Shown here: one piece after another, positions 18,882 through 20,411 of the stretch | Layout of the letters: each line of letters starts with the position of its first letter | Position numbering within the stretch: position 1 is the stretch's first letter | The notes under the pieces: generated by a model | Seen by the model: only the letters and a program-made list of their open reading frames with translations | What the model was told of the DNA's origin: nothing | Databases searched by the model: none | Source of the DNA: Acidobacteriota bacterium | Lineage (GTDB): Bacteria > Actinomycetota > Acidimicrobiia > Acidimicrobiales > CADCSY01 | Length of the DNA: 54,307 bases | Assembly: GCA_019510095.1 (NCBI GenBank) | Contig: JAEKLB010000023.1 | Span: 1-54,307 of the forward strand | Direction: 5' to 3' | Position numbers and translations under genes: made by a program

Positions 18882-19880
18882 ATGAGGATCGCGGTCCTGG
18901 GTGCCGGCGCCGTCGGCGCCCGGACGGCACGCCAGCTGGCGTCGACCGACGCCGTCGAGTCCGTACAGGTCGCTGATGCCATCGGCCGGCGGGCCGAGTC
19001 GGTGGCCGATGCCATCGACGACCGGTCGCGGGTGCGGGCCGTGCCGTACGACAGCTGGGCCGACGGTGCCGACGTCGTCGTCCTGTGCCACCCCGGCGGC
19101 GATCACGGCGCCCTTGCCGAGGGTTTCGTGCAGGCCGGGGTGAGCGTGGTGTCGGTGAGCGACGATGTCGACGACGTCCAGGCCCTGCTGGCCCTCGATG
19201 GCGCGGCTCGGCGCGCGGAGGTCTCGGTGGTAGCCGGGGCCGGCTTCGCGCCCGGGCTCACCGACGTGTTGGCAGCCCATGCCGCCGCCCAGTTCGACGG
19301 CGTCGACGAGGTGCACGTAGCCAAGGTGGGTACCGGCGGCCCCGCCTGCGCCCGGGCCCACCATGGCGCCCTCGCCGGCGAGGCCACCGATTGGCGGGAC
19401 GGGGTCTGGCAGCACCGGCGGGCGGGCACCGGTCGGGAGCTGTGCTGGTTCCCCGACCCGGTGCGGGCCCAGGACTGCTACCGGGCTGCTGCGCCCGATG
19501 CGCTGCTGCTGGTGCCGGCGTTTCCCGGTGTGTCGAGGGTGACGGCGCGCGTCGCGGCCAACCGCCGTGACCGCCTCACCGCCCGCCTCCCGATGCTGCG
19601 GCCGCCCCATCCCGAAGGCGGCATCGGCGCCATCCGGGTCGAGCTGCGCGGGCGGCGGGGCCCGGTCCGGGAGGTCGTGGTGTTCGGGGTCATGGACCGC
19701 CCGGCGGTGGCGGCCGGCGCGGTGGCCGCCCTCGCCGCCGTGGAGGCTGGGGCCGGACGGCTGCGCCGCGCCGGGGCGGCCGGGTTGGCCGAGCTGGTGG
19801 AGCCGGTGCCGTTCCTGGCCGAGCTCGCCCGCCGTGGGGTCAAGGCCGCCGTGTTCGAGGGGTCGGCCCCCGGCCTCTAG
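18882..19880 (+). CDS. Saccharopine-dehydrogenase-like NAD(P)-binding protein
   Basis: The 332-residue product has an N-terminal Rossmann fold starting MRIAVLGAGAVGARTARQL, followed by ADVVVLCHPGGDH and GAGFAPGLTDVLA, features of the saccharopine dehydrogenase/LysW-reductase superfamily. The C-terminal half is Ala/Arg-rich with no family-specific catalytic motif I can point to, so the substrate is unknown. ATG 18882 follows a GAGGTGA ribosome-binding site. Confidence 0.8.
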   Translation: MRIAVLGAGAVGARTARQLASTDAVESVQVADAIGRRAESVADAIDDRSRVRAVPYDSWADGADVVVLCHPGGDHGALAEGFVQAGVSVVSVSDDVDDVQALLALDGAARRAEVSVVAGAGFAPGLTDVLAAHAAAQFDGVDEVHVAKVGTGGPACARAHHGALAGEATDWRDGVWQHRRAGTGRELCWFPDPVRAQDCYRAAAPDALLLVPAFPGVSRVTARVAANRRDRLTARLPMLRPPHPEGGIGAIRVELRGRRGPVREVVVFGVMDRPAVAAGAVAALAAVEAGAGRLRRAGAAGLAELVEPVPFLAELARRGVKAAVFEGSAPGL

Positions 19881-19889
19881 ACGTCCAGC

Positions 19890-19910
19890 TGTAACTGTGT
19901 AATTCTGTAA
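19890..19910 (+). promoter_or_regulatory. Three TGTAA direct repeats with 8-bp period (candidate operator)
   Basis: TGTAA occurs at 19890-19894, 19898-19902 and 19906-19910, exactly 8 bases apart. This is an unusually A/T-rich island in GC-rich DNA, ending 1-3 bases before the start codon. The arrangement fits a tandem operator for a ribbon-helix-helix protein. It also contains TAATTCT, a possible -10 element for a leaderless transcript. Confidence 0.6.
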
Positions 19911-19913
19911 GTG

Positions 19914-20411
19914 ATGAGTGAGATCGCGGGATGGTTCACCGGCCGGCTGCCCGATGGGTGGTTCACCGCGCCGCCCGAGGTCGACGCCGACCGGGACGAG
20001 ATCCTGGTGGTGGGCACCCTCGTCCCGCCCGAGGTCGAGGGCAGCGACGACGCGGTGGCCGCGGCCTGTGCGGCCCGGGCCAAGCGGTTCCGCGAGGAGA
20101 CCCGAGCTACCCGGGTGGCGATCGCCGAGGAGGCCGAGCACCGGTTCGGGCGCAAGGTGGCCTGGGGCGTCGAGATCAGGGGCGACCGCTACCTGTTCAC
20201 TCATCTGGCCGTCCCGGTGATGACCCGCCTGCGGTTCAGCGAGCGGGTGGTGCTCGACACCCTCATCGACGCCGGCGTCGCCCGGAGCCGGAGCGAGGCG
20301 CTGGCCTGGTGCGTGCGGCTGGTCGACCGTCACCAGGGCGACTGGATCACCCAGCTCCGCGACGCGCTCGCCCACGTCGAGGAGGCCCGGCGGTCGGGCC
20401 CCGATCTGTAG
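19914..20411 (+). CDS. Conserved protein with ribbon-helix-helix-like segment
   Basis: The 165-residue protein starts at ATG 19914 (GTG 19911 is an alternative). The N-terminal half has acidic, charged sequence PPEVDADRDEILVVGTLVPPEVEG. The later segment LRFSERVVLDTLIDAGVARSRSEALAWCVRLV strongly resembles an RHH DNA-binding unit (beta strand, helix, SRSEAL turn, helix). Direct repeats next to its start suggest autoregulation. I do not recognise a named family, so the DNA-binding role is inferred. Confidence 0.75.
   Translation: MSEIAGWFTGRLPDGWFTAPPEVDADRDEILVVGTLVPPEVEGSDDAVAAACAARAKRFREETRATRVAIAEEAEHRFGRKVAWGVEIRGDRYLFTHLAVPVMTRLRFSERVVLDTLIDAGVARSRSEALAWCVRLVDRHQGDWITQLRDALAHVEEARRSGPDL

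Follow-up and report, generated by a model that had tools for sequence, protein, structure and literature searches.

What is the function of three phased TGTAA repeats placed immediately ahead of a gene, and which protein reads them? In the window (the whole 54,307-nucleotide stretch of DNA analysed here) the sequence TGTAANNNTGTAANNNTGTAA occupies positions 19890-19910 of the plus strand with no mismatch, exactly as the original prediction had read it. Dinucleotide shuffles yield 0.01 matches to this sequence, even with three mismatches tolerated, and the perfect triple has a chance expectation of approximately 1e-8 in a window of 70% GC. The repeats are part of three putative operator modules of 8 bp each, read from the sequence as TGTAACTG (19890-19897), TGTAATTC (19898-19905) and TGTAAGTG (19906-19913), all on the plus strand, in the same orientation and non-palindromic. 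Together they span 19890-19913 and are adjoined by an ATG at 19914. The third module includes an alternative GTG at 19911, the mechanical start of the open reading frame; the alignment of relatives makes ATG 19914 the more likely start. The array takes up 24 bp of the 33-bp intergenic gap 19881-19913, and the GC content of this gap, 42% compared to 70% for the window, agrees with the earlier remark that the site is A/T-rich in a GC-rich genome. Upstream lies a NAD-binding oxidoreductase-like gene (18882-19880, plus strand), codirectional with the gene downstream, its stop codon 9 bp before module 1.

The downstream gene (19914-20411, plus strand) encodes 165 amino acids from the ATG or 166 from the GTG. 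The protein scores 251 bits with NCBIfam model NF058631 (ATP-binding transcription factor AbmR), for which the cut-off is 160. The match covers positions 3-167 of 167 and passes the curated whole-protein cut-off, so by this model the product is predicted with confidence to be a member of the AbmR family. AbmR is Rv1265 of Mycobacterium tuberculosis; a review describes it as binding both ATP and DNA and as inducing the small RNA (sRNA) Mcr11 (PMC8628891). The original prediction had not recognised the protein as AbmR. The window protein alone gives no match in Pfam, a sequence comparison with the PDB gives nothing significant, and the same is true of a Foldseek search with the full-length model. 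Relatives are encoded by 31 of 98 order-level genomes and by 63 of 397 phylum-level genomes. Named genomes contribute at least 80 loci, including those of Streptomyces, Mycobacterium, Rhodococcus, Lentzea, Blastococcus, Gordonia and Actinomadura, together with metagenome-assembled genomes (MAGs) of Chloroflexi and Dormibacterota. Some relatives have two abmR copies (G087, contigs C34 and C59; G051, contigs C22 and C16).

Is the array peculiar to this locus or does it accompany the family? The regions upstream of homologues were compared, as the original prediction had proposed, over 117 AbmR loci dereplicated at 90% protein identity. Under a strict definition, which requires two GTAAY or RTTAC boxes at a separation of exactly 8 bp, 95 of the 117 loci carry an array; the mean for dinucleotide shuffles is 0.12 loci, and no such pair occurs in the gene bodies. 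Of the other 22 loci, most keep the register with GTAAG modules; only a few genuinely depart from the pattern, with a single box, an off-register pair or no box. With a relaxed definition, in which C, T or G (or the complement) is accepted at the sixth module position, 111 of the 117 loci carry, close to the start codon, an array of two to four modules of the type represented by module 1, spaced by exactly 8 bp. The comparison therefore comes out strongly in favour of the idea of a distinctive operator belonging to the downstream gene. When the loci are restricted to proteins all less than 60% identical to each other, 35 of 40 retain the array. Loci with the array extend from mycobacteria and Streptomyces to MAGs of Chloroflexi and one of Dormibacterota.

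The consensus module across AbmR loci is TGTAATCA, in which symmetry is confined to the TG and CA ends. In many loci the modules touch or overlap the start codon; the ATG begins on the last base of the array in 26 loci and follows directly after it in seven. The M. palustre array reads TGTAACGA TGTAATCA TGTAATCA then TG, and that of Streptomyces AGTAATGG TCATTACA TGATTACG, with the start codon spanning the second and third modules. TTGAC-like -35 hexamers are found at a fixed distance in few loci only. Streptomyces loci such as L114, L138 and L152 also share a conserved AAT(C/A)GGCCTGAAACATTCCG, tens of bases before the array. Searches with the box sequence returned unrelated papers only, and no published description of the operator was found in the literature searched, which did not extend to the papers defining AbmR; a prior description of the site there is conceivable.

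The spacing of the modules, written as TGTAATNN or the complement NNATTACA for the purpose of counting, is tightly constrained. Among same-orientation neighbours, 80 forward and 24 reverse pairs show the 8-bp step, and 16 bp is the next commonest separation. Opposite-orientation nearest neighbours within 26 bp are spaced by 8 bp in 26 of 38 cases, which come from about eight lineages less than 60% identical, and a binomial figure that ignores this relatedness is not a probability. Arrays in reversed or mixed orientation (+-, +--, --, ---- and others) mostly keep the register, a use of both orientations in homologues that the original prediction had not noticed. A module might flip without a shift in register because a symmetric dimer is centred on each one, and from the behaviour of the relatives we infer that the modules in the window may likewise be read with two-fold symmetry.

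Are such arrays used elsewhere in the same genomes? In the genome from which the window derives, the perfect double box GTAAYNNTGTAA occurs at this locus only. Relaxed direct boxes give one additional site (C29:1649) and the in-phase inverted pair another (C104:4298). A multi-gene regulon was rejected, since perfect double boxes in this genome are confined to the abmR locus. Outside abmR, the motif is about as frequent in the 98 order-level genomes as a reversed-pattern control, and on this ground a genome-wide promoter element was also rejected. In a hand tally of the matches listed, 15 of 25 occurrences of GTAAYNNTGTAAY in AbmR-bearing order-level genomes are at abmR itself; in order-level genomes with no detected AbmR, a hand count of the matches listed gives 46 compared to 40 for the reversed-pattern control. 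Three of 198 order-level genomes contain a triple with pyrimidine-ended boxes, which lies at abmR in two cases.

Most matches in 30 further AbmR genomes again fall at abmR, the exception being a site conserved in mycobacteria close to a FAD-oxidase-like gene. There, GTAATACTGTAAC lies directly before that gene, and a TetR-like gene runs divergently on its other side, in most of the Mycobacterium-type genomes searched (near position 1501 in L175, L177, L181, L183, L201 and L203), the gene names being taken from a reading of the translations. A second AbmR target is possible at this position, but the sequence is more likely the TetR-like regulator's own site.

The protein itself offers a candidate DNA-binding domain. 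The original prediction had drawn attention to an SRSEAL segment and to a ribbon-helix-helix (RHH) likeness. The segment is present in the open reading frame, at about residues 126-131, and the C-terminus does look RHH-like, but no single test of the fold reaches significance. The putative RHH segment (approximately 20217-20345, plus strand) runs through VMTRLRF, a helix, RSRSEAL and a long helix, and is suggested by the motif, the model and weak matches. In a 35-member alignment Thr105, Arg106 and Leu107, ahead of the SRSEAL segment, are invariant. The AlphaFold2 model is confident (pLDDT 90.7) and places helices at residues 109-120 and 127-162, with a low-confidence stretch at the place of the RHH strand, as a monomer would be expected to show. 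Weak Pfam matches to ParD and RHH families occur in six of the 35 members, the best with an E-value of 0.0045 (ParD). A Foldseek search with the C-terminal segment returns mostly RHH antitoxins as top matches, with a non-significant best E-value of 0.38. Profile comparison with members of RHH_1 is colinear with a P value of 0.008, or 0.036 with a wider alignment, values barely better than those of column-shuffled controls, and it was set aside as proof of the fold for that reason. The assignment draws on several weak signals, and the C-terminal segment probably adopts the RHH fold. The N-terminal domain (19914-20213) is confidently predicted and has no significant match to any solved structure.

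How might the array and the protein work together? The presence of the array, its conservation, register and specificity, and the family membership of the protein are directly established here, and we infer that AbmR itself binds the array with one dimer per 8 bp, cooperatively, to repress its gene under ligand control. One dimer of the C-terminal RHH segment would sit on each module and adjacent dimers, 8 bp apart, would bind cooperatively as in MetJ. Because the array overlies the start codon together with what is presumed to be the promoter or the initially transcribed region, an occupied array should keep abmR expression low. Such repression would be tuned by the ligand of the protein, as which ATP serves in M. 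tuberculosis AbmR. In broad terms the array is very probably the switch for AbmR control of its own gene, judged from sequence, and we regard this detailed scheme, a MetJ-like operator with all of the properties listed, as likely. The sign of regulation could differ, given that mycobacterial AbmR is reported as an activator of Mcr11.

In three Mycobacterium-type loci the Rfam sRNA RF02341 is found upstream of abmR on the minus strand, where some 125-150 bp separate its 5′ end from the array; from the expected position this is presumably Mcr11. At the window locus (L002) an Rfam search gives no sRNA match, and a diverged or unrelated sRNA would escape such a search. Mycobacteria also have a palindrome, TTCGCN5G(C/T)GAA, which begins some 32 bp before the array (approximately 1369-1384 in L164, with similar positions in L034, L036, L038, L044, L140 and L173). 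A putative CRP site upstream of MTS0997 has been placed at 107 bp (PMC3207917), and the palindrome lies at nearly that distance from the sRNA 5′ end.

Could the array serve a purpose other than autoregulation? The M. tuberculosis precedent (PMC8628891), with the proximity of RF02341 in three loci, might suggest that its main role is to activate a divergent sRNA. The window locus speaks against this, with no RF02341-type sRNA recognised by Rfam and an upstream gene that runs in the same direction as abmR and ends 9 bp short of the array; the array is moreover conserved in many taxa without a known sRNA. We consider this the least probable of the three alternatives, and remote. The modules might instead form the core of a leaderless promoter, as overlapping -10-like TGTAAT elements with no regulator involved. 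The resemblance of TGTAAT to a -10 hexamer and the abutment or overlap of modules with the start codon in the 26 and seven loci described fit such an arrangement. Yet a -10 element has no need of two to four exact 8-bp repeats, would not be expected in reversed or mixed orientations that keep the register, and should recur before many genes, whereas the array is near background elsewhere in the same genomes. A core promoter is decidedly unlikely.

The array might also be the operator of a different, unlinked regulator that controls abmR. Binding of the array by AbmR itself is a prediction, and the signals for an RHH segment are individually non-significant, both of which give this proposal some purchase. 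Against it, the array accompanies abmR across Actinomycetota as well as in Chloroflexi MAGs and a Dormibacterota MAG, and in relatives is near background away from the gene. Where a near single-target operator lies beside a gene that encodes a DNA-binding protein, autoregulation is usually indicated. An unlinked regulator therefore appears unlikely, and autoregulation by AbmR is the reading that we prefer.

AbmR is a poorly understood regulator of M. tuberculosis, tied to host-cell association and to Mcr11, and the conserved array supplies a concrete candidate DNA site together with a probable DNA-binding domain. It yields a direct prediction, autoregulation through cooperative 8-bp arrays, and offers a simple test of how RHH dimers read asymmetric boxes in either orientation. 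A wider proposal is that the AbmR proteins of Actinomycetota and neighbouring phyla form a distinct class of ligand-controlled RHH autoregulators, whose dimers occupy arrays of flippable, asymmetric 8-bp modules in register and have essentially one high-affinity target, their own gene. We judge the arguments for and against this generalization to be evenly balanced.

How does the system compare with those already known? The closest known system is AbmR (Rv1265) itself, which belongs with the window protein to NF058631, and mycobacterial loci have the same array; the window locus differs in having no recognised sRNA. The closest solved folds to the C-terminal segment are RHH antitoxins of the ParD/MazE type, M. 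tuberculosis ParD1 and Pseudoalteromonas ParD, although the structural match is non-significant. Antitoxins of this type bind operators at their own promoters. AbmR differs from them in carrying a 100-residue N-terminal domain.

MetJ, an RHH repressor, provides another parallel. The window protein lies outside the MetJ family, with no match between AbmR and that family in Pfam, NCBIfam or PDB searches. The original prediction had considered an 8-bp step unusual for stacked RHH dimers; on the contrary, it is the textbook case for one RHH protein, because MetJ operators consist of two or more tandem 8-bp boxes, AGACGTCT, and respond to a small-molecule co-repressor (PMC4239095). The gene metJ counts among the targets of its own product (PMC3274233). 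The abmR arrays resemble these operators in that their 8-bp boxes, two or more in number, adjoin one another and keep a strict register. They depart from them in the box itself, near-palindromic for MetJ, whereas the abmR consensus is asymmetric and found in both orientations. AbmR also differs from MetJ in combining a separate N-terminal domain with its C-terminal RHH-like segment, and its own gene seems to be its one main target.
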